From Sinohyriopsis cumingii (taxonomy: Eukaryota; Mollusca; Bivalvia; Unionida; Unionidae), in the NCBI GenBank assembly GCA_028554795.2, contig CM068830.1:42888337-42952336 (forward strand): 64,000 bases of DNA, written 5' to 3'. Position 1 is the stretch's first letter. Each line of letters opens with the position of its first letter. Position numbers and translations under genes: made by a program. Of this stretch, positions 2,960 to 62,725 are shown in pieces. A model generated the notes under the pieces. That model was not told where the DNA came from, made no database searches, and saw only the letters and a list, made by a program, of their open reading frames with translations.

Positions 2960-4795
2960 CATACATGACTTGTAACAGAAACAGTGTTATAATGAAGGAT
3001 CTTCTAACAGGAACTGTGTTATAAGGAAGGACCTTCTCAAAGGAACTGTGTTATAATGAAGGACCTTTCAACAGAAACAGTGTTATAAGGAAGGATCTTC
3101 TAACAGTAACTGTGTTATAAGGAAGGACCTTCTCAAAGAATCTGTGTTATAAGGAATGACCTTTTAACAGAAACAGTGTCATAATGAAGGATCTTCTAAC
3201 AGTAACTGTGTTATAAGGAAGGACCTTCTCAAAGGAACTGTGTTATAATGAAGGACCTTTTAACAGGGACAGTGTTATAATGAAGGACCTCACGGGAACT
3301 GTTAATATGAAGGGCCTTGCAGTAGGAATACTTATAATAAAGGTCCTTAGAACAGGAAAAGTGTTATAATGAAAAGCCTTATAACATGAATAGAGTTATA
3401 ATGAAGACCTTATAACAGGAACTATTATAATGAAGGGTCTTATAAGAGGAAAAGTTGTGAAGGGAAGGGCTTTATAGCAGGAAAACTGTTATAATGAAGG
3501 GCATTATAACATGAATTGTTATAATGAAGGGCCTTGTAACAGGAATATTGTTATAATGAAGGGCCTTACAACAGAAATGTTTATAATGAAGGGCCTTATA
3601 GCAGGAACAGTTGTAGTGAAGGTAAGGGCCTTATAACAGGAAAAGTGTTATAATGAAGGACCTTATAATGAACTGTCATAATAGACGGTCTTATAATAGG
3701 AACATTGTTATAATGAAGGGCCTTATAACAGGAACAGTGTTATAATGAAGGGCCTTATAATGAACTGTTATAATAGAAGGTCTTATTATAGGAACATTGT
3801 TATAATGAAGGGCCTTATAACAGGAACAGTGTTATAGTGAAGTTCCTTATAATGAACTGTTATAATAGAAGGTCTTATAATAGGAACATTGTTATAATGA
3901 AGGGCCTTATAACAGGAACAGTGTTATAATGAAGGTCCTTATAACTGGAACAGTATTATAATGAAGGGCTTTATAACAGGAACAGTGTTATAATGAAGGA
4001 CCTTATAATGAACTGTTATAATAGAAGGTCTTATAATAGGAACATTGTTATAATGAAGGGCCTTATAACAGGAACAGTGTTATAATGAAGGTCCTTATAA
4101 CTGGAACAGTATTATAATGAAGGGCCTTATAACAGGAACAGTGTTATAATGAAGGGCCTTATAACAGGAAGTGTTATAATGAAGGACCTTATAATGAACT
4201 GTTATAATAGAAGGTCTTATAATAGGAACATTATTATAATAAAGGGCCTTATAACAGGAACAGTGTTATAATGAAGGTCCTTATAACTGGAACAGTATTA
4301 TAATGAAGGGCCTTATAACTGGAACAGTGTTATAATGAAGGGCCTTATAACTGGAACATTGTTATAATGAAGGGCCTTATAACTGGAACATTGTTATGAT
4401 GAAGAGCCTTATAACTGGAACAGTATTATAATGAAGGGCCTTATAACAGAAGCCGTTGTAATGAAGTGTATTACAACATGAACAGTGTTATAATGAAGGG
4501 CATTATAACAAGAACAGTGTTACAATGAAGGGCCTTATAACAGGAACAGTATTATAATGAAGTGCCTTATAACAGGAACAGTGTTATAATGAATGGCCTT
4601 ATAACTGGAACAGTGTTATTATGAAGGGCCTTTTAACTGGAACAGTGTTATAATGAAGGGCCTTATAACAGGAACAGAGTAATAATCAAGGGCCTTATAA
4701 CAGGAACAGTGTTATAATGATGGGCCTTATAACAGGAAAATTATTATAATGAAGGGCCTTATAACAGGAAATGTTTTAATGAAAGGCATTATAAT
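2960..4795. repeat. Minisatellite, about 31-32 bp unit, TTATAA-rich
   Basis: About 60 imperfect copies of a unit built from gttataatgaagggcc and ttataacaggaacagt. Each unit holds two ttataa palindromes. Left-hand units (2960-3300) are more diverged (ctgtgttataaggaaggacc); a variant with ttataatgaactgttataat recurs every few units, a weak higher-order pattern. The array begins soon after the SINE head at 2808. Confidence 0.9.
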
Positions 4796-5120
4796 GAGGG
4801 AGTGCTGTGCACATTTTGAGAATCTTGAAAATAATTATTGTAATCATTCATGTCTTTGAAGCACTCCTGTTATTATTTCAAACTGAGTGCTACTAAATGG
4901 CATATATTCAAGGGTGAAAAAAATGATAATACCAAATCAAAGATTTTGTTGTTTTCATTACCTGCGAATTGATTATCAGATTTGTTTGGTAAATCCAAAC
5001 AAACGTTATGTTCATATAGAGACAGACTCATTCAGAGATTTAGTTACTATATCATTTTTATGGCTCCTGACAAATGTCAATGACTGAGGTTTTTTATAGC
5101 TGAAATAAATAAAACTTACT
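4796..5120. other. Non-coding spacer
   Basis: Unique AT-rich sequence; I see no exon, repeat or RNA gene. Confidence 0.4.
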
Positions 5121-5282
5121 GTGTTTGATCATGACCATAGAAGGAAATTTTTTAGTCACATTGTGTCCTTCAGTCTGGACCAATAAAAAATCCAGTTGTC
5201 TAAACTGATTTGTCATTGGTCCAGATTGAAGGCCTCTATGTGACTGAAAAACAGTTTGGCTCCATTGTCATGATCATCAGCT
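5121..5282. mobile_element. Near-perfect hairpin, likely foldback MITE
   Basis: The left arm (5121-5185, through agtcacattgtgtccttcag and tctggaccaat) and right arm (5216-5282, attggtccaga, ctatgtgactgaaaa, catgatcatc) are inverted copies of about 62 bp around a 30-bp loop. It ends 150 bp before the first exon's acceptor. No coding potential. Confidence 0.65.
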
Positions 5283-5314
5283 GCTAAGGTAGCTGGATGA
5301 AAGAAAAAATGGAG

Positions 5315-5431
5315 GACTGATATACTGCATGTCTTCTTTTCCTTGACTACAGATTGAGACGGTAAGTGACAAAATGAAAGAGAAAACGGAAGACTGATAT
5401 ATTGCATGTCTTTTTTTTTTCTTGACTACAG
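5315..5431 (+). promoter_or_regulatory. Duplicated 3' splice region, possible 9-nt microexon
   Basis: About 79 bp are tandemly duplicated: gactgatatactgcatgtct...cttgactacag occurs at both 5319-5352 and 5394-5431. After the upstream acceptor (AG at 5351-5352) comes attgagacg and then a perfect donor gtaagt at 5362. Positions 5353-5361 could therefore be a 9-nt in-phase microexon (Ile-Glu-Thr). Without that donor, translation from the upstream acceptor meets TGA at 5395. Use of either site is untested. Confidence 0.45.
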
Positions 5432-5656
5432 ATCGAGAAGCTAAGTGAAACAGAAGATGTTCACAGCATTCTAAAGAAGATTGTCCATGATTGTGATGAG
5501 ACCAGTCTAACATCCACCAAAAAGGCCCTTCAGCTTAGACTGGATCCATGGTCAGTCCAACGACTGTCCGAAATACTGGCAAGACTTAATCACTCCAAGC
5601 TCATTACAATGGCAACTGATACTGATGGGACCAAAAATGCCTCCTCTGCTACCTCG
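5432..5656 (+). CDS. JAKMIP-like gene, exon a (75 codons)
   Basis: The exon starts after a pyrimidine-rich acceptor (run of T, then cttgactacag) and ends at ACC TCG before gtgagt. It encodes 75 residues, IEKLSETEDVHSILKKIV through TDGTKNASSATS. The first 50 are predicted helical and rich in L, K and D; the tail is a polar linker. I do not recognise this part by family. It sits where JAKMIP has its mid-protein linker before the second coiled coil. A near copy of its acceptor lies 79 bp upstream, and its 3' end seeds the repeat array that follows. Confidence 0.72.
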
Positions 5657-8600
5657 GTGAGTGTTATATTTACTCCTCTGCTACCTTAGTGAGTTATATT
5701 TACTACTCAGCCACCTCAGTGAGTGTTATATTTAATCCTCTACTACCTCAGTGTTATATTTACTCCTCTGCCACCTTGGTGAGTGTGATATTTACTTATC
5801 TGCCACCTCAGTGAGTGTTATATTTAATCCTCTGCTACCCCAGTGAGTGTTATATTTACTCCTCTGCTACATTGTGAGTGTTATATTTACTCTTCTGCTA
5901 CCTCAGTGAATGTTATATTTACTCCTGCCACCTCAGTGAGTGTTATTTATTCTTCTGCTACCTTGTTGAGTGCTATATTTACTGTTCAGCCACCTCAGTG
6001 AGTGTTATATTTATTTCTCTGCCACCTCGGAGAGTGTTACACTTCTTACAAGGTCAAAGGCACGGAGACCTTCGCAAGAAAATCAGAAAGTTGAAAGCTG
6101 AAAATCTGTACACTGTTAATCCAACGAATTTCGTGAAATTCTGCAAAGAATGCATGATTTATATTGTACATAGTATGGTAATATTGTTTGTGGTGATAAT
6201 GAATATCAGGTTTGTAAACAGAATTTGACTTCTCCTGGCTTTTATCTGGCCCCTTTTGGGATCTTCAAAATCACTGCTGCATTTATTTCAGAAGTTGTTG
6301 TTGTTCTTGTTGTGAGGTTTAATGCCATTTTACAGCACACAATAGGCTATACATGGTGGCCAGTATTAATGGTGGAGGAAGAACGCAGGAAAAACCCAGG
6401 AAAAAACCACCGACCCACGATTTCAGAAGTAGTATGCAATGAAGAAAAATGGTAGACTTGTGTTCCAAATAAATTCTAGATAGGAATTGTTTACTCAAGC
6501 TTCAAGCATTAAAATCTCATCATGGAAGCCTCAAGTCATCAGAGGCTGATAGGTATATGAATATGGATTTACTGAGTAAATGGGAAACATCCATGGACAT
6601 TTGCAGCCCCTATTGTTTTCAAATTGACTCCACTTTTTGACCTGGTAGGGATCCAAGGGACCCACTTTTTTCATTCCTGGAATCATATGTATCAGAGTCT
6701 ATATCAGTCAATTTCAAAATTTTAATTAGTAGCTTCTTAATTTTAATTAATTAGCATCTAAACCATTATATTTTTTTATCTACATAAATTGAATGTGCTT
6801 TTATAGAAATGAAATTATTTGCCATATGTATTCTCAATTATGTCAAGGAACATCTGACTCATGCACATTTTTTCCAACTCTTCTCATTTGGGGGCTAGGA
6901 CCTGGATGACAATGTGTGTTGCCTTGGTACACTCATATGAAGATTTCTGTGCCATCTCCGAGTATGGTGGACACAAGTATTTCTTAAACTGTCATCTCTA
7001 ACAATTTTGTTTCCTCGGCCATTTCTTGCTCCCAATCCCCAACTTATCCTACTTTTTATAAAGATTCACCTGTCTGTCTGCAGTTCAGACCAAGTCTGCC
7101 TTAAATCACAGGCCAAAAAGTCTAAAATCCAGACACAAAATCCGATCCCATCCAACTGGCAAATTTTTAGTGTAAAAAAATCGGGTTTCTAAAGCTGTTT
7201 TTCCCACTGCATTTTGTTATGTGAAAGAAAGTCCAGATTATTTTTTGGTATCATTGTAGAGCTACATCTGTCTGCTCTTTTGTAATGATGCTACTTTGTT
7301 GTATTTTAAATGACCTTGACACTACAGAGCTTGGAAGTAGGGTACAGCCTCAGGCGGGATTGGGACTGAATGAGTTAAGAATTCTTAATCTGACTACCCA
7401 TCATGCATCATTGCACCAACTGTTGCCCAGGTGGAACAGCTCTAGTCCCAAGTACACTGGTTCTGGCTGGTTTCTGCAATGATGCACAATATATGACCCT
7501 CTGACACATTTTGTGTCTCCTGTGTCCTGTGTGTTTTATTCATGTTTATTTATGCTGTTATTATAGACACAACATTTGCACTGCTTTCCACTTAGTTCTA
7601 ATAAAGATTGATTTTGGCCCATGTATATGTTTGAGTTATGCACCCTTTTTGTAATGTGTGGACAGAAAACATAAAAATGCTGTTTGTTTCTTTTTTTCAA
7701 TTTGTTTTTAAAAATCTTTTAATTTTCAAAGTTTCAGCTAATGGTTTTGGGGTCGACAGCCTTTAAAATGATTTTTTTGTTGTCCTACATCTGGTTGAAT
7801 TACATGTATGCAGAATGAAAATTTCCTTTGGGTCCTGAATGGCCAGTTATTTACATGATTGTTTTGATTGCAACGTTTAGACTCATAACTTGAACTGTGC
7901 AACAACCTGGTGTCTAAATCCTTTCTTTAAACACACTTCTGCATAAATACACAGATGAATTTTATTACTTGATAAATGAATTCAAATGAAATGCTTGTCA
8001 GTAATTGCTTGCATGAGTTTATGCTTTCTTCTTTTTTTCAGTCCGGCTGCTCTGAAGAAGAGAGCAGCCAGAAATCTCAGATGAAAGTTGCTGAGCTGGA
8101 GTTGGCACTTAAAGCCTCAGTTTCACAGGACAGCTCTCAGCTGGTTAGTGTCATTACCCAACTCACTTCCTCTAGAAATTACTAACCAACAGAAAACCAT
8201 AATTTCTAATCCTTATGCAAAATAATGCTTTATTTATTTTATATCATTTTTACAAATACACAATTTACATACCCATTAATCGTGATCATGCTACGGAGGC
8301 AAAGTGGGAGGCTAAGTCATGGAAAAATACTTTGCCTTCTTCTATAAAAAAAAGTGAAAATGACTTTGCCCTGTTACGTTTTAGATGTTAACTAAGTGGT
8401 AGCAATTTATAGCTTTTGAGTTATAGTGTTGTAGCCCCAGGCAAAATCTATTGCATCCTTTTCAGATGTAAATATCTATTTTGTGCCAGCCAAATAAACT
8501 TGTGCACATTCACAGGCATGTATTTTAAAAGATGATTTATCATTAAAAAATAGTGTTTATTAATGGAATGTACAAGTATCATTGACAGGAAATACATTGA

Positions 8601-54513: not shown

Positions 54514-54686
54514 CCACTTCAGTGGCCTAGTGGTTAGAGCATCCGCCTCAGATGCAGAAGGTCACAGGTTCGAACCCCAGCTGAGTCATACCAAAGACAT
54601 AAAATTGGTAAGAGGTTAGTGTTAGGGCTGGTCAGTCTGGCATCAGGATAATGTGACTGGGTGGAACATGATGCTACATGTCTACA
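54514..54686 (+). mobile_element. SINE family A, 5' half of a split copy
   Basis: Head ccacttcagtggcctagtgg, B box aggttcgaaccccagc, body to ctacatgtctaca. The sequence stops exactly at the left end of the 7.9-kb element; its continuation (gcatgatgccccagtgctag) resumes at 62613. A short stretch before gtaagagg (tactagcagctgcct region) is deleted. Confidence 0.85.
54685..54686. other. Target-site duplication CA, left
   Basis: CA here and at 62611-62612. Removing the element and one CA restores tgtctacagcatgatg, which matches the other SINE A copies (tgtctgcagcatgatg) in length and sequence. Confidence 0.75.
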
Positions 54687-54696
54687 CCCGGCTGTA
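54687..54696 (+). repeat. Left terminal inverted repeat
   Basis: cccggctgta; exact reverse complement of 62601-62610. Confidence 0.85.
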
Positions 54697-54714
54697 GAAT
54701 GTCCATCATATTCC

Positions 54715-55247
54715 ATGAAAAATGATGGAAAACGCTGGAAAATTCTAGCATGGAAAACGCTGGAGTATTTGGACTAATATTCCAGCCTCTGTCCAGGGTA
54801 GGCTGGAAAACCCTGAACAATTCTTGCATGGAAAACGCTGGACAATTCTAGCATGGAAAACGCTGGAGTATTTGGACTAATATTCCAGCCTCTGTCCAGG
54901 GTAGGCTGGAAAACCCTGGACAATTCTAGCATGGAAAACGCTGGAAAATTCTATCATGGAAAACGCTGGAGTATTTGGACTAATATTCCAGCCTCTGTCC
55001 AGGGTAGGCTGGAAAACCCTGGACAATTCTAGCATGGAAAACGCTGGAAAATTCTAGCATGGAAAACGCTGGAGTATTTGGACTAATATTCCAGCCTATG
55101 TCCAGGGTAGGCTGGAAAACCCTGGACAATTCTAGCATGGAAAACGATGGAAAACCCTGGACAATTCTAGCATGGAAAATGCTGGAGCATTTGGACTAAT
55201 ATTCCAGTCTTTATCCAGGGTAGGCTGGAAAACCCTGGACAACACTA
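54715..55247. repeat. Left subterminal array of the transposon
   Basis: Repeated modules: tctagcatggaaaacgctgg, then gtatttggactaatattcca, then gtccagggtaggctggaaaa. The composite unit recurs about five times. Each module contains short inverted pairs (ctgga/tccag), so the strand can fold on itself. Repeated subterminal motifs are where CACTA transposases bind in known systems. Confidence 0.85.
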
Positions 55248-55722
55248 AAATTTAGCTGAAAATTGTTGAAATATTTTATGAAAACGAGATTTTTAACAGT
55301 GATGCAACTTTTATTTGATGATAATTTCAAGAAGAACATGATCCAAATTACCCCAACCAACTCCTTGTATTGACTGTGATGTTTAGTAACTTTTAAACAA
55401 GGAAACAAAAATTAAAAACTATACTTGTCACTGGTAGCTTAATAGGTTGTGCACTAGTATTCAGTAGACAACATGGCTTAAGTTGTCATAAATGTCGCTA
55501 CACTTCTACTGGTGACATAAAATCCAGATTACTGGCTCCTTAACATCATCCGAGTTTCTAAAAATATGTTCTCTTACTCTAGTTATAGTTTGAATTTATT
55601 CTGAAGCAATCTTAACAACAAAATAACAGAAATTCACGTTAATTTCTATCTCAATTTTAATTTAAAAATTTTTAAATATTTCTTTTTACACGTGTTGTTT
55701 CATAGTTCATTCACCACATTTC

Positions 55723-55844
55723 TTATTTTTCTGTTGTCACCACTGGAGTCTGTGGAAGTGATGGTACTCTTGATGGTTTAACCAAATCGCAAAGCTTCTG
55801 TCTCACCATCACCTCCCCAATGTTATACTTCTCCTTCATGATTT
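55723..55844 (-). CDS. Transposon-borne unknown gene, terminal exon
   Basis: On the minus strand the exon follows tgtatttcag and gives two bases completing a split codon. It then encodes IMKEKYNIGEVMVRQKLCDL, VKPSRVPSLPQTPVVTTEK and a TAA stop. The phase matches the exon at 58797-58608 exactly (1 + 2 bases, Glu). The part is basic and helical, then Pro/Thr-rich. Confidence 0.5.
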
Positions 55845-55856
55845 CTGAAATACAAA

Positions 55857-55916
55857 TCATTGTATATTAATGAATCGAATCAAGCAAGATTTCAAATTTA
55901 TTTCAATCCCAAAAAA

Positions 55917-55982
<66 letters not shown>

Positions 55983-56000
55983 GCACAGAGAGAGAGAGAA
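55857..56000. repeat. Compound TA/GA/GACA microsatellite
   Basis: atatatat (55917-55930), then gagaga, then gacagacagaca to about 55982, then ga-rich. Confidence 0.9.
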
Positions 56001-56171
56001 AGGGAGAGAGAGGGGAGTGAGAGAATGAGAGTTATGCCTGAAACATTTCATGCAATTACAGTACTTTTACAATCCCTGAGGTTGGTAATTGTAATGAGGC
56101 ACTTGGCTTGATGACTAACTTGATAGCCTTAAAAACCTGTGGTTTCCATCACAAATTAAACTGGCTAGCTA

Positions 56172-56315
56172 ACTGCTCCTGTGGCCTAAGTCTAAGTGGT
56201 TAGAGCGCCTGCTACGGGTGTGAGAGGTCACAGGTTTGAACCCTTAACCGAGTCATACCAAAGACTTATTAAAAAAATGGTACTATTAGCTGCCTCGCCT
56301 AGTTCTCAGCATTAA
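56172..56315 (+). mobile_element. SINE family A, 5' half of second split copy
   Basis: Inside the 7.9-kb element. Head ctgctcctgtggcctaagtc, B box aggtttgaacccttaacc, body to ttctcagcattaa. The rest of the SINE (gaggttagtgttagg) resumes at 57073. Confidence 0.82.
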
Positions 56316-57068
56316 CCCTTTACCTCATGCAAGCATCTTTTGACGCCTCTACTCCATTCACATGGAAGCGCCTTTTGATGCCTACTGTAAACATCAGCCA
56401 TTTTAAGCCGGTTTTCATAGCGCCACCTTCGGGGAAAACCCCCATTTAGATACTACATTCATTTCTGTGAATGACAATTACATCAGATCACGTGGTCACT
56501 GTTTATGCCCTGGTCGATATCTGCTATTTAAAGTAACTGGGTCATAATCTCCACTCTCCAAAATGGAGGTCGCGGATTTCATTCAGTACTTACGAAGTTT
56601 TCACGATTAGAATCAGAACTAAGAAAGATTCAATAACTTAGGTAAAGGCTCTGATATTGATGCAGGCAGCAATTAGTTTTCATAAATTATCAAATTCAGA
56701 TGACTTAGTGATGTAGATGCAGACGACAAATTGTAAATTTGAAGTATGAGAAATGGCAGCTACGATTGGTCACGCGGCCTCCCTGACATGACGGTGAATG
56801 AGTCCTCTCAGGATTTTAAAGCACGTAAAAAATTCTTCAGTGAAAAATAATTACGCAGCTATAACAATCAGACTTTTAATCTTAAATTTTTCCACACATA
56901 ATAGATGTGTACCAAAAATGTAAAATGGTTACAATTGCTGTTTAACATAAAATACACTACATTGCTTAACAGTTAACAGGCAGGCCTATGCGTATGGAGT
57001 CGAACAGGTAACAGGTGCTCTATTTATAGCATGCTGCACTTTGTAATTATGCTCTATAAGGTAAACGG
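56316..57068. mobile_element. piggyBac-like MITE, 753 bp, inside SINE
   Basis: Left end ccctttacctcatgcaagca; right end, read in reverse, ccgtttaccttatagagc. Flanks are TTAA (56312-56315) and ATAA (57069-57072, one substitution). TTAA targets and CCCTTT termini are the hallmark of piggyBac. Subterminal repeats aagcatcttttgacgcct and aagcgccttttgatgcct lie at the left. A short frame MEVADFIQYLRSFHD then stop at 56563 may be the start of the lost transposase. The element is CpG-richer than its surroundings. Confidence 0.75.
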
Positions 57069-57264
57069 ATAAGAGGTTAGTGTTAGGACTGGTCAACCTG
57101 GTGTCAAGATAATGTGAATGGGTGGGAGACATTATGCTACATGTCTGTGGCATGATATCCCAGTGCTAGACATCACTATAAATTGCCACACTGCAGACAT
57201 CGTAGCGATGTGACTAAACATTTGTTAAAGCTACGTTACTAAACATCTGAATCACGCACACACA
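57069..57264 (+). mobile_element. SINE family A, 3' half of second split copy
   Basis: Continues from 56315: ataagaggttagtgttagga through gctagacatcactataaatt, tail gaatcacgcacacaca. Confidence 0.82.
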
Positions 57265-57830
57265 AACTGGCTACCATATACATGCAGTTGTGATTATACC
57301 ATTTAAACTGAAAGTAGATTTACATTGTCCATTTGAATATTGTCTGTCTACACTATAATATTTCAAGTAGTAGTTGTGTATACGTTTAAATTTCATAATA
57401 ATGTTCCATCCCTAGTTCATAAAAAAATTTTGTTACGATTTGGCATATATTTTGTCATAGGTTAACAAAGTTTAAAACGCATGGTTAATAATTTAAAATA
57501 TACCATAAATTATTTGAATTCTGGACTGTTCTTGGAGAGGTGGCCTTGTGTGTACTTATTATTGGCTCTTGCCCCAGTTAGTGTCTTGCCAATATATTCA
57601 CCAGAGCTGTACAGCATTCTGAATATTTATTTAGCAGCTTTGTTAAAATCCAAAATTTGACATATTTCTGCCTCATGCTGGGTGTGAAAAAAATTTAATC
57701 CAAATTTTCACCATGATGATTCATATGCACTAAGTTTCTGATATATTTACTTATCTACATACACAACTCCAGGTTACAGCTAATGTTCTAGACATTTGAA
57801 TTTGAAACAAATGTGGTATTACCTCTCGCT
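57265..57830. other. Transposon interior, nothing recognised
   Basis: Presumed intron of the minus-strand gene. No motif seen. Confidence 0.35.
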
Positions 57831-57833
57831 TGC

Positions 57834-57917
57834 TTAATTCAAATTAAAAGATCGAAGAATTTCAATGAAGCTGTCGCCATCAAGTTGTTTACATAACTGT
57901 GCCTTGCCACTTTTTTT
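57834..57917 (-). other. Possible alternative terminal exon
   Basis: After ctttaatttcag a minus-strand frame reads KKSGKAQLCKQLDGDSFIEI, LRSFNLN, stop. It looks protein-like but is not in phase with the exon at 58608; in the spliced phase it gives nine residues and a stop. Either a one-base change has shifted it or it belongs to another transcript. Confidence 0.3.
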
Positions 57918-57919
57918 CT

Positions 57920-58600
57920 GAAATTAAAGGACACAAACTAAACAAGTATTTTTGGTGAGGAAAAATGATAATCATTTCCAACAGTTTACAACTGTACATT
58001 CTTATTAATTATACAATAAGTTACTATTTAATATTACTGAAATGGCTGAATATAAATTGGATAGTCAGAAACAAGCCATAATCTGAATTGAAGATTAATT
58101 GGAAAAGAGATCTACCGGTATATTTCCGAGTCACAGTCTAAAATTAATTAAAACAAATATAACTTATTGCTACAAATAGCACACTGTCTGGAAAATAATA
58201 ACGAAAATGTAAAAAATACAAATACCAGTCAGATCATTAATAATATCAAGGGTCAATAAAATTTAAAGTGAAATTTACAATTTGGAAATGTATATTCGCA
58301 AGGCCGGCACGTACCAACTTTTTTGAACGAAAGACACGAGATGACTGGTCATTGTGCATTAGGATAAGTAAAAAATGTTGCCAATTATGTAAACAAAGCT
58401 TAAAACATAACACATACCTTTCAATATCCTTACAAGTTTGACGTTTAATTTATCAGTCTTCAAACAGCATGAAAAAAAGAAATTGTTCCATAGGATATAT
58501 TTCGTAATAGCTTTCCGTAAATTTACGTCACGCGAAGTCTTTCGCAGCTAAGGTACTTGGCGGCCGTGCAAATAATTTTGCTACAATTGGACTGAGTAAT
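57920..58600. other. Transposon interior, presumed intron
   Basis: Unique AT-rich sequence between the possible alternative exon and the first exon of the minus-strand gene. Confidence 0.35.
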
Positions 58601-59340
58601 GACTTACCTGCTACTTTCGCAATAATACACTCATGGTATCCCTTGAATCCACGACAAACCGCCATCACTTTCTCTCCCGTGCGATATTCCTTCATTTCTT
58701 TTCGTGGCGAGCGTACATCAGCCATACAGATTATGCCTCCTTGAATGGGACGATCATTCACCCATATAACCAGTGATATTTCTGGTTCAATGGTCATCTT
58801 AAAATCCTGGGATATTTTATATTATACAATTTCAATGACACTCCAATCGAAAATTGCGCCCAAATTCTAGACTGGTTATCCAAAGCGTATTTCGGTGCCA
58901 TATTTGGAAGCAAAATTTACAGAAACGGTTTTTTTTTTTTTGTTTTTTTCTTTTTACAGAAAATTTGGTTCTAACGCATGAAATCGAAATATGCCGGCTT
59001 TTTCAATGTAGTAATTGGTTAGAAAAAAATAAGTTCTTAATTTTATATCCCATCATAGTCAGCTTCATCAGCCATCATCATACGGAACAACCTCGGCTAT
59101 TTCTGCGTGACAAAAACGTGACTCCGATACGCGAAGGCGAATACTTGACAGAAAAATGAGACATTTTGTTCTCTTTTGATTTATGATTTATCTAAGGAGT
59201 TAATATATATACATCGGATACCAACGCCGTGATTTGGATATGTTGGGGAATGATTGGTTTACAGTAAAGTGGTTTTAGAAGACAAAGTTTACGACCAAGA
59301 GGCAATATCGTGTCGAGGTGTGGAACACAAATGGAAAGAC
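58500..59340. promoter_or_regulatory. CpG-richer divergent promoter region
   Basis: CG dinucleotides are frequent here (for example gtcacgcgaagtctttcg, ggcggccgtgc, gatacgcgaaggcga) and scarce through most of the window. The ATGs of the minus gene (58797) and the plus relic (59240) point away from each other across 440 bp. The likely role is a shared bidirectional promoter of the transposon; this is inference. Confidence 0.45.
58608..58797 (-). CDS. Transposon-borne unknown gene, first exon
   Basis: Minus-strand exon with ATG at 58797 and a consensus donor (gtaagt, 58607-58602). It encodes 63 residues plus one base. The protein starts MTIEPEISLVIWVNDRPIQG and contains ADVRSPRKEMKEYRTGEKVM then AVCRGFKGYHECIIAKVA. 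Joined to 55844-55723 it gives a 103-residue protein without disruption. The alternation of V/I with charged residues suggests a small beta-barrel (SH3/Tudor-like folds look similar), but I recognise no family. TATAAAATA lies 19-27 bases upstream of the ATG, and the plus-strand relic diverges from the same region. An alternative exon at 57917-57834 (acceptor ctttaatttcag) would truncate the frame after nine residues in this phase. As the transposase relic beside it is broken while this frame is open, it could be under selection, or simply short. It could also be a captured host gene. Confidence 0.5.
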
Positions 59341-61780
59341 AACACAAATTGGACACCCAAATATTATAGGTGAGTATGAGATAAACGGAGTCTCGACTTT
59401 ATCTCGTTTGCCCAAGTATAAACTGACTATATGATTAACCGCCCAACACTATATATGTATGACTGGTAATTAAATTGTAAGCAAGTATTTCAATAAATGT
59501 GAAAAGATATACAAGGTCAAAAACAAGTTTCCTTTTGCACCAGTTGTAAAATTAGAGTAGGTATTTTTGTTTTTCAATATATATGTATATATAACTTTCA
59601 AAGCAACCTAATTTGTGGAATTTTATTTTAACAGCCATAACCTTGTAATTGTCAGTCTTGGAAATGTTAACTCCAGTGATACATGTAAGCCCAAACAGGG
59701 ACTGCTCTGGTATTATGATAAAGTTGTGAATTTCTTGAGTATTTGTAGATCTAGTCCAAAAAGGTCTTTAGGTTACTGCTAAATTTTCAGACTGCTACAT
59801 ATATAAGTAAAATCATAACTTAAGTAACTTAAGTCCTGGAAAAAGAAATTTTGAAAAATTTCACATTAATCTTAGCAAGATTAAAATGTACACAAGTTTT
59901 ACCATGAAGATGATTTTTGAACGATATGTTAATGTTTTAATCAGTCTGACTGTACAGTCTGTAAACGTTTGAATGCTGTTTGTGTATTACAGGTACTGGT
60001 GTTCAGGACAAAATATATAAGCAGTTTGAAGTTAATTCCACAAAGTCCATTCCTAAAAGCACTATGTACTGGAGGAAGAGAAAACAATGGTAATTCCAGG
60101 AGTAATAGAGAGCTTTTTTACATTTTAAATAATGTCTGCAGCTGTCTTCCACAACAATGTTTATTTGTGTGAAGATAAGCATTATTCTTTATACATCTGT
60201 TCTTACCTAGTACATTCACAGCTTAACATGGCTCATATCTTAAACACAGTTTCATTATCATATCAATAATTTAAGGAATAAACAAATTTCACTATACAAC
60301 ACTAAGTGGAATTTTCAGAGTTCAACAAATTCTGAGTATATGGTGAAATCATTCAGATTTACAGACAGAATATTCAGTGTACGTGTTTGAACAGAACATT
60401 CACTCTGTATGGGTTATCCAACACACCATACACAATATATGCACAATGTACACCATATTTAACCAAATCAGCCAATTACAGAAATTCCAGGAAATATCTG
60501 ATCAGTATTGATTCTTGCAGAACAAGATATAATAATTTATTGTTATGCATTGTCATACTTAAGTTTTTAATTATTTAAAATGTTAAATATAATTTTTACT
60601 TTCATTTTTCTTATAATGCCCTAAAATGTTATGAAACTTGAGTTGTTTTTCTGAAAACATCACATACATTTATGAAGTGTATGTTGTATCACATGTACTT
60701 TGTATAATTGAGTATATTATTGTGTATCAATTACTTGTCATTTACATGCATTCATTGTGTATCATGTTTGCATTACCCATGTTTAAATGATGCATGCATT
60801 AACATTGGATTTGTCAAACTAAACTACTGTAACAGTGTAATATTAACTGTACATATTCAGTTCCCACAACAAAACAATAATGTTTGAATGTTAAGATTTT
60901 AATATGAATTATACATGTTCACTAAAATTTGTATTTCTCATTACAGTGTTGTTGATCTAGGTGAATCCAGTTCTGTTGGTCTTGGATATTATGAAATTGG
61001 TGACTGTACGTAATACTAATCTTCAAATATAATGAGAATATCAACAGATGAACCAACTAGATATGGTGACAGTGACATGAGTTTTTCATCTGACTCAGAA
61101 GAAAGTAGAGTTTTAATCAAGTTCAGACAATGAACAGTATCATCAGGTGAATGAAGCAACTCAGTCTTACCCATCTCATGTCACAGATCCCCCACTTTAT
61201 GTCATAGCCCCATAACAAGATATATATTGTAGTGAAATCACAAAGTCTGAACATGTTATTGTCCTTGGGGCTTTGCCAACAAGACATAATTTGTCAGATG
61301 CTAAATATGTGACTTTTTGGACTTAATTCAGTTGCATCTTCCTTCAGCAAACACAGGATTGACAATTGTCAAAGATTTGAAGGAAAAATGTGAATTCAGT
61401 AAGGAGTACAATGTATCTCAAATACAATTTTTATTGTGGGATCTGCAAAAAATTGTGCTCCGATAAAGAAGAAATGTGTGAAACTGGGGGCTGTACAGGT
61501 GTACATAACTAATAATTATGAGCAAACATCTCTTTGGAATGAAGTTGGCTCTGACAAGAAAGAAGACTTCCTTTCATCATCAAAAATAGGATCAAGTGTC
61601 TTCGAGAACCTATTATTGTTGTTGAAATTGGAAATGCCATTTATGGTACTGTTCTCCCCAATCATCATGAAAAGGACTAAAATGGCTCTCACCATTGCGC
61701 AGCAGAATTTCATACTTATACACTGTAGTGTCAAGCTCGAGTGGTGAACAGATTTGGACATATTTATGATTTTATATGCA
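59240..61780 (+). pseudogene. Decayed spliced CACTA/EnSpm-like transposase
   Basis: Three exon remnants join in phase. 59240-59369 starts ATG, reads MLGNDWFTVKWF, then an in-frame TAG at 59276, then KTKFTTKRQYRVEVWNTNGK to a gtgagt donor. 59993-60089 follows attacag and reads TGVQDKIYKQFEV to a gtaatt donor. 60947 onward follows ttacag and reads VVDLGESSSVGLGYYEIGDC before TAA at 61011. Phases are 1+2 and 2+1, so splicing was once real. Beyond it, frames break repeatedly. 61032-61130 reads MRISTDEPTRYGDSDMSFSS. Later fragments include LPTRHNLSDAKYV and a cysteine cluster YCGICKKLCSDKEEMC (61432-61479, pattern C-x2-C-x3-C-x6-C). An acidic linker, an RHNLS motif and then a cysteine knot is the order I recall in invertebrate EnSpm-type transposases. 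No catalytic core remains, so it cannot mobilise the element. Confidence 0.55.
60100..60940. other. Relic intron, nothing recognised
   Basis: AT-rich sequence between the second and third remnants of the transposase relic. Confidence 0.4.
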
Positions 61781-62169
61781 CCAGATATTTTCTGGTCAGG
61801 ATTTAACTAATTTTTCAGGATATCTTTTCATACATGTATAGTTTGTGTTACACCAACATTTTTGTATAGTGATGTTCTTTTGATAATGAACATTTAATTA
61901 CATATGTGGTACATACAATAAATGATGTACTACTTCAACACTTGTAGTTTGTTTTTTTAAAGCAGGGGTCAAGTGTGTGTGTGTGTGTGTATGGTTTAGT
62001 TTGTTTATCTGACTTGTGTCCTCTATTTCTCAGTATATATTTATCATAGGTTTGAAATAATAGTTTAGTTTCAAGTTCAAAAATCTGTGTTACAGCGCAG
62101 TTTAGTCATGATTGCTCTTTCTTTAGGTAATTCAAAATAATTCTTTGTACCAATCTTGAAAATTGACTA

Positions 62170-62590
62170 AGTTCTTTTCCAGGGTTTTCCATGCTGAAAT
62201 TTATCCCAAAAATTCTAAGTCCAAACTGTCCATCCTTTTCCAGGGTTTTCCATGCTGAAATTTATCCAAAAAATTCTAAGTCTAAACTGTCCATGCTTTT
62301 CCAGGGTTTTCCATGCTGAAAAAAATTCAGAGTCCAAAATGTCCATCATTTTCCAGGGTTTTCCATGCTGAAAAAAATCAAAGTCCAAAATGTCCATCGT
62401 TTTCCAGGGTTTTCCATGCTGAAAAATTTCAAAGTCCAAAATGTCCAGCATTTTCCAGGCATGTCCAGCATTTTCCATGCACAATGTCCAGGGTTTCCAT
62501 GCTAAATTCTGGAGAATATTTCATTTTTCCATCATTTTCCAGGGTTTTCCATGTTTTTCCATCGTATTCCATCCTTTTCCAGAGTATACG
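62170..62590. repeat. Right subterminal array of the transposon
   Basis: About seven copies of ttttccagggttttccatgc followed by tgaaaaaaatcaaagtccaa and aatgtccat. In reverse complement this is the catggaaaaccctgg module of the left end. A run of about ten ttttccat/ttttccag words leads to the terminal repeat. Confidence 0.85.
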
Positions 62591-62600
62591 ATGGAAAAAG

Positions 62601-62610
62601 TACAGCCGGG
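62601..62610 (-). repeat. Right terminal inverted repeat
   Basis: tacagccggg, reverse complement of 54687-54696, followed by the CA target duplication. Confidence 0.85.
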
Positions 62611-62725
62611 CAGCATGATGCCCCAGTGCTAGACATCATTATAAACTGCCACACTGCAGACATCATTGTGATGTGACTGAATTGTTTTTAAAAAAATACA
62701 TTAAAATCCAAATCACACACACATA
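62611..62725 (+). mobile_element. SINE family A, 3' half of first split copy
   Basis: Begins cagcatgatgccccagtgct and ends aaatcacacacacatac. It is the continuation of 54514-54686. Confidence 0.85.

Follow-up and report, generated by a model that had tools for sequence, protein, structure and literature searches.

Insertion of a transposon into a SINE

The window analysed here is a 64,000-nucleotide stretch of the genome of the bivalve Sinohyriopsis cumingii (G000:C7:42888337-42952336), and the genome searched for related sequences comprises 2.9 Gb. Direct reading of the window revealed a transposon of 7,924 bp at positions 54687-62610, with a CA on either side, which lies within a tRNA-type short interspersed nuclear element (SINE). 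Its left end, CCCGGCTGTA, begins at 54687 and its right end, TACAGCCGGG, finishes at 62610, which confirms the matching terminal inverted repeats reported in an initial annotation of the window. Based on the sequence comparisons described below, we consider it very likely that this element is a non-autonomous, internally deleted CACTA/EnSpm (Transposase_21) transposon of the TRC type ("Transposon Related to CACTA") that inserted into the SINE. The element and its flanks contain the following features, given by window position and strand.

54514..54686, +: 5' segment of the tRNA-type SINE split by the element, up to and including the left target duplication (outer limit from the initial annotation)
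54685..54686, no strand: left copy of the 2-bp target-site duplication (CA), from flank reading
54687..54696, +: left terminal inverted repeat, CCCGGCTGTA
54687..55246, +: left subterminal array, a 103-bp tandem unit repeated 4.9 times
57070..57262, +: SINE piece carried within the element, likewise present inside copies L006, L007, L008, L010 and L084
58606..58797, -: open 64-codon exon of a divergent reverse-strand gene, with no Pfam match
60764..61501, +: relic N-terminal transposase part with an acidic stretch, an RHNL motif and a C2C2 zinc-like motif (names assigned by eye), in broken frames and 87% identical to the C82 locus described below
61501..61511, +: internal deletion junction, from the C82 alignment
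61511..61682, +: relic C-terminal transposase part, 95% identical to C82 over 61511-61589, the remainder being predicted from the fused open reading frame (ORF) of L102
62167..62610, -: right subterminal array
62601..62610, -: right terminal inverted repeat, TACAGCCGGG on the + strand
62611..62612, no strand: right copy of the 2-bp target-site duplication (CA), from flank reading
62613..62725, +: 3' part of the interrupted SINE (outer limit from the initial annotation)

The reverse-strand gene also takes in window positions 55720-55870 (-).

Deletion of 54687-62610 plus one CA yields a continuous SINE. We built this empty site in silico by cutting out the element with one CA and joining the flanks by script, and the predicted site reads TGTCTACAGCATGATG. 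Among the sequences compared, 24 SINE matches to the rejoined site were found, 18 of which spanned the junction. Seventeen of these 18 showed no gaps within 14 columns of the junction and 1-5 mismatches each, and the sole gapped match, L031, had 13 gap columns at the junction. Among the 18, L011 is a second count of the window itself, and six sit inside copies of the element (window 57070, L006, L007, L008, L010 and L084). For SINE copies outside the element family, 10 of 11 are gapless over the junction, which bears out the initial proposal that the two SINE halves rejoin once the insert and one CA are removed.

We also examined the subterminal regions using the motif TGGAAAA, which was picked after the sequence had been read. 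This motif occurs 19 times in forward and 0 times in reverse orientation within the left 560 bp, once in forward and 17 times in reverse orientation within the right 444 bp, and three times forward and once reverse in the intervening 6,920 bp. The subterminal arrays are thus oriented in opposition, as the initial annotation had described, and the length of the left array differs from copy to copy. Opposed subterminal repeat arrays are usual in CACTA elements, and we infer that the TGGAAAA arrays may be transposase binding sites.

Copies, target-site duplications and age of the family

The exact left-end 30-mer occurs 78 times genome-wide and the exact right-end 27-mer 83 times, with 0 occurrences of either reversed control, which establishes that other copies with the same termini exist. 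Pairing of ends by order and orientation, with a limit of 60 kb, resulted in 62 pairs and left 16 left ends and 21 right ends unpaired. Most pairs (56/62) are 7.0-8.5 kb in length, and the others comprise two of 5,792 bp, one of 6,619 bp and three of 23-30 kb. When the DNA query was extended 30 bases beyond 62610, 40 places were scored of 231 candidates, and in the 39 scored places other than the window the match stopped 0-7 bases beyond 62610, which indicates that copies do not run past this position. One copy that was read, L010, starts with TCC rather than CCC. The exact delimitation of the element claimed in the initial annotation therefore holds, but not as a feat achieved from a single copy, because dozens of young copies exist.

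The three end pairs that lie 23-30 kb apart were considered as autonomous long copies and rejected. The pair on C55 (L082-L084, G000:C55:8882253-8905429) consists of a Polinton-like insert nested in an 8-kb copy, in which ~15.2 kb interrupts the element at position 5106-5113. The ORFs of this insert, named by eye, presumably encode a Polinton/adintovirus-like integrase, an FtsK-like ATPase, an adenain-like protease, and capsid-like, PLA2-like and helicase-like proteins. The copies on C1 and C14 are interrupted after element position ~5866 and before ~3435, respectively; because these positions differ, no shared cargo is seen, and a long form at C1 or C14 is unlikely. In addition, G000:C2:139543327-139714025 contains five left ends in the same orientation, ~40-44 kb apart, with no exact right ends within 60 kb, and this series looks like a tandem segmental duplication.

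Flanks were read on both sides of 39 copies, window included, which correspond to 38 independent insertions: two C6 copies with identical flanks are one duplicated insertion, and the flanks of the other copies differ. Because exact ends were the main criterion for choosing these copies, selection accounts for their agreeing right up to the ends, and the flanks are the added information. A perfect 2-bp target duplication was present in 30/39 copies, in contrast to the 8.6% expected from re-paired flanks, and a flank match of exactly 3 bp was found in 0/39 copies and one of 4 bp in 1/39. The 30 exact duplications comprise 11 different dinucleotides, which suggests that insertion has no strict target. 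The target duplications of hAT, PIF/Harbinger, Tc1/mariner and piggyBac elements are 8-bp, 3-bp, TA and TTAA, respectively, none of which agrees with the 30 exact 2-bp duplications of 11 dinucleotides. In 6 of the 9 copies with imperfect duplications the second base alone differs, and on the left side that base adjoins the element.

We compared the final 1.7 kb across 30 copies. Pairwise differences have a median of 1.4%, the duplicated C6 pair differs by 0, and the window copy is 0.4% away from the majority sequence. The largest pairwise difference, 16%, involves a copy of 5,792 bp and probably reflects the deletion in that copy. Five full-length copies show pairwise differences of 2.0-2.7%, gaps excluded. 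Judged from these differences, amplification of the family is recent on the family's own scale, as opposed to a calibrated date.

Evidence of descent from a Transposase_21 element

The Pfam domain Transposase_21 (PF02992) has 37 matches genome-wide. Besides its own copies, the relic protein of the window element matches C82:2304965-2305252 at 77%, and this region directly adjoins the Transposase_21 match at C82:2304277-2304708. In the DNA alignment with C82, element positions 3107-4802 match at 84% and 6078-6815 at 87% on the left side, and positions 6825-6903 match at 95% on the right side, with nothing beyond. Between the left and right matches, C82 keeps ~3.2 kb, including Transposase_21, that the window element lacks (C82 4612 to 7797). 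Furthermore, a 196-aa C82 frame that starts in the shared zinc-like motif scores 31.7 bits for Transposase_21 at a cut-off of 28.6. Because C82 aligns on both sides of the Transposase_21 stretch, these results indicate that the window element arose from a member of the CACTA superfamily by loss of the catalytic domain at 61501/61511, and the window copy is therefore classed only as a non-autonomous derivative. When frames of seven Transposase_21 loci were compared with the window element by tblastn, no convincing match emerged (the best one, E 8e-4, pairs a reverse frame of L091 with the SINE carried in the element), so the link to Transposase_21 came only through the C82 locus, and superfamily membership rests on this relative since the window copy itself shows no Transposase_21.

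The same deletion is found in the older relatives L102 and L103 (~86-91% identity in aligned pieces), with no Transposase_21 in the parts of these loci that were read. A single open 117-aa frame of L102 joins the zinc-like motif to the C-terminal part, and in L103 the frame shifts inside the zinc-like motif. A further deletion, from element 4427 to 6674 (read in the right 1.7 kb), is common to the two 5,792-bp copies, which occupy different sites with duplications CA/CA and TA/TA and so show that deletion derivatives of the family transpose.

The genome also holds a young TRC-type family with a 613-aa open Transposase_21 frame (L091, L094, L095 and L096 on G000:C4 and C5), with more copies on C3, C6, C7 and C18. 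Two copies of this family are 99.8% identical across 6.8 kb, its termini are CCCC, its subterminal arrays consist of GTTCATGAAC, and flank reading in two copies gave TT/TT for one of them. The presence of Transposase_21 in this family indicates that CCC-type termini and subterminal arrays belong to Transposase_21 elements in this genome.

Plant En/Spm elements have CACTA termini, a 3-bp duplication and arrays of different sequence; defective elements such as dSpm are moved in trans, and an element protein binds the inverted arrays of subterminal motifs. The CCC ends and 2-bp duplications do not agree with a plant-type CACTA element. The EnSpm/CACTA assignment made initially is thus upheld by the duplication length, the arrays and the relic, now tied to Transposase_21 via C82, but CACTA termini are not what the element carries, its CCC ends being of the TRC type. 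CACTA elements have been studied mostly in plants (PMC4298943, which, like PMC1636069, is cited here from excerpts). For animals, the excerpts of PMC1636069 (DeMarco et al., 2006) propose CCC as the core of TRC termini and describe SmTRC1, which has CCC termini, Transposase_21, 2-bp direct repeats in 7/14 copies, truncated derivatives, and insertions into other repeats that were used as empty-site proof. As far as these excerpts go, the window family shares with SmTRC1 and animal TRC elements the CCC, the 2-bp repeats, the link to Transposase_21, the internal deletion derivatives, insertions into other repeats that demonstrate the empty site, and an internal tandem-repeat region, and its CCC termini, rather than CACTA, suggest that it fits the animal TRC branch. 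In contrast, SmTRC1 is ~4.5 kb with 54-bp inverted repeats, whereas the window family is mostly ~8 kb with 10-bp inverted repeats and, unlike SmTRC1 as excerpted, lacks a catalytic domain and has long subterminal arrays in inverted orientation. The excerpts of PMC4298943 place the Hydra element Spongebob_HMa / EnSpm-4N1_HM, with CCC termini and a 2-bp duplication, in TRC, and state that its authors did not find the exact transposase owing to stops and frameshifts. Spongebob_HMa is 5.8 kb with the terminal sequence CCCAGCCAACATTGAC, unlike that of the window family, and it is likened here by the published description.

Alternative readings and the source of the transposase

Several observations weigh against placing the family among TRC-type CACTA elements. 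The window element is absent from the genome's 37 Transposase_21 matches, and a Pfam scan of 8 of its stop-free frames returned nothing above cut-off. In C82, the match on the right is only 79 bp, element positions 4802-6078 are missing, and a stop is shared in the N-terminal part; element ends, with <=1 mismatch allowed, were not found in the 10 kb read. Exact 2-bp duplications are lacking in 9/39 copies, which exceeds the expectation from point mutation at ~1% divergence; in these copies the first base only matches in 6, the second only in 1 and neither in 2. The second copy of the CCCC family is flanked by AT and AA. Finally, the C82 transposase piece, used as a query, gave 191 candidates, of which 150 were scored; among these, no intact transposase of the window family was found, and the catalytic stretch appeared in decayed loci only. 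The decay of C82, the shortness of its match beyond the Transposase_21 stretch and its want of recognisable CCCGGCTGTA ends would fit a reading in which that stretch arrived as a separate insertion, the window family then being part of a different superfamily that also makes 2-bp duplications. We regard this reading as highly improbable, because one C82 frame leads from the shared zinc-like motif into Transposase_21, a second locus (C82:1181217-1181650) has both parts at 82% and 76%, and the ends, arrays and duplication length match TRC elements.

Equally improbable, in our judgement, is that the element is autonomous and encodes a transposase of its own that has so far escaped recognition, possibly in spliced exons of the forward strand or in the reverse-strand gene. 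Candidate exons on the + strand with splice-like borders, assigned by eye, lie at 59263-61015, and these and the open reverse exon at 58606-58797 are preserved in most of five copies; L010 carries a stop in one candidate forward exon, and L007 a 16-bp deletion in the reverse exon. Comparison of the reverse exon with C82 gives 9 silent and 11 replacement differences (pS 0.22, pN 0.08), small counts that carry little weight in favour of a working gene, and selection on the exon is not apparent among young copies (1-2 silent vs 4-6 replacement in four comparisons, also small counts), where it looks neutral. Moreover, the longest stop-free frame of the element is 114 aa, and no catalytic domain lies between the two C82-matching parts. 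At most listed places the relic protein is matched only in halves, split near query residues 60-73, which suggests that the same break is common to many copies. Pfam scans of the reverse exon and of the L102 fused frame returned nothing above the curated cut-off, and since the splicing of the reverse-strand gene could not be fully worked out, we propose no complete protein for it. The reading that we favour, a non-autonomous TRC-type derivative, accords with the CCC-starting inverted repeats, the 2-bp duplication, the opposed arrays and descent from a Transposase_21 element (C82), and the window copy lacks the Transposase_21 that an autonomous element would carry.

Under this non-autonomous reading, a transposase from elsewhere in the genome would bind the CCCGGCTGTA termini along with the inverted TGGAAAA arrays, presumably excise the element by cut-and-paste, and reinsert it almost at random through a cut with a 2-bp stagger that would leave the CA/CA duplication; such an enzyme would act in trans. 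The close catalytic relatives recovered in the C82 search were C82:2304412 itself, pieces of C82:1181217-1181650 at 76-82% with one stop, and C82:1165866, which is short, at 78%. Less sure relatives were C18:18326298-18326758 (44-62%) and C14:86505978 (47%), with stops in both, and the next matches were transposases with open frames but distant sequence, at 31-37% along most of the query and <=47% in shorter pieces. The partner enzyme may be absent from the assembly or may have died out; otherwise, a distant TRC enzyme works in trans. One version, which we hold to be rather unlikely, is that the family's own transposase is extinct and that a distant TRC family (~31-37% over most of the C82 query) moves it, the L102 fusion possibly having been a DNA-binding regulator before its frame decayed.

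The picture of CACTA biology is unchanged by this element, which is a well-supported yet ordinary transposon. Base-exact ends, duplication statistics, arrays and the deletion that gave rise to the non-autonomous form are now available for an animal TRC-type CACTA family, and a young family that lacks a transposase, and for which the searches made here recovered no intact partner, allows asking which other Transposase_21 family in the genome moves the element.

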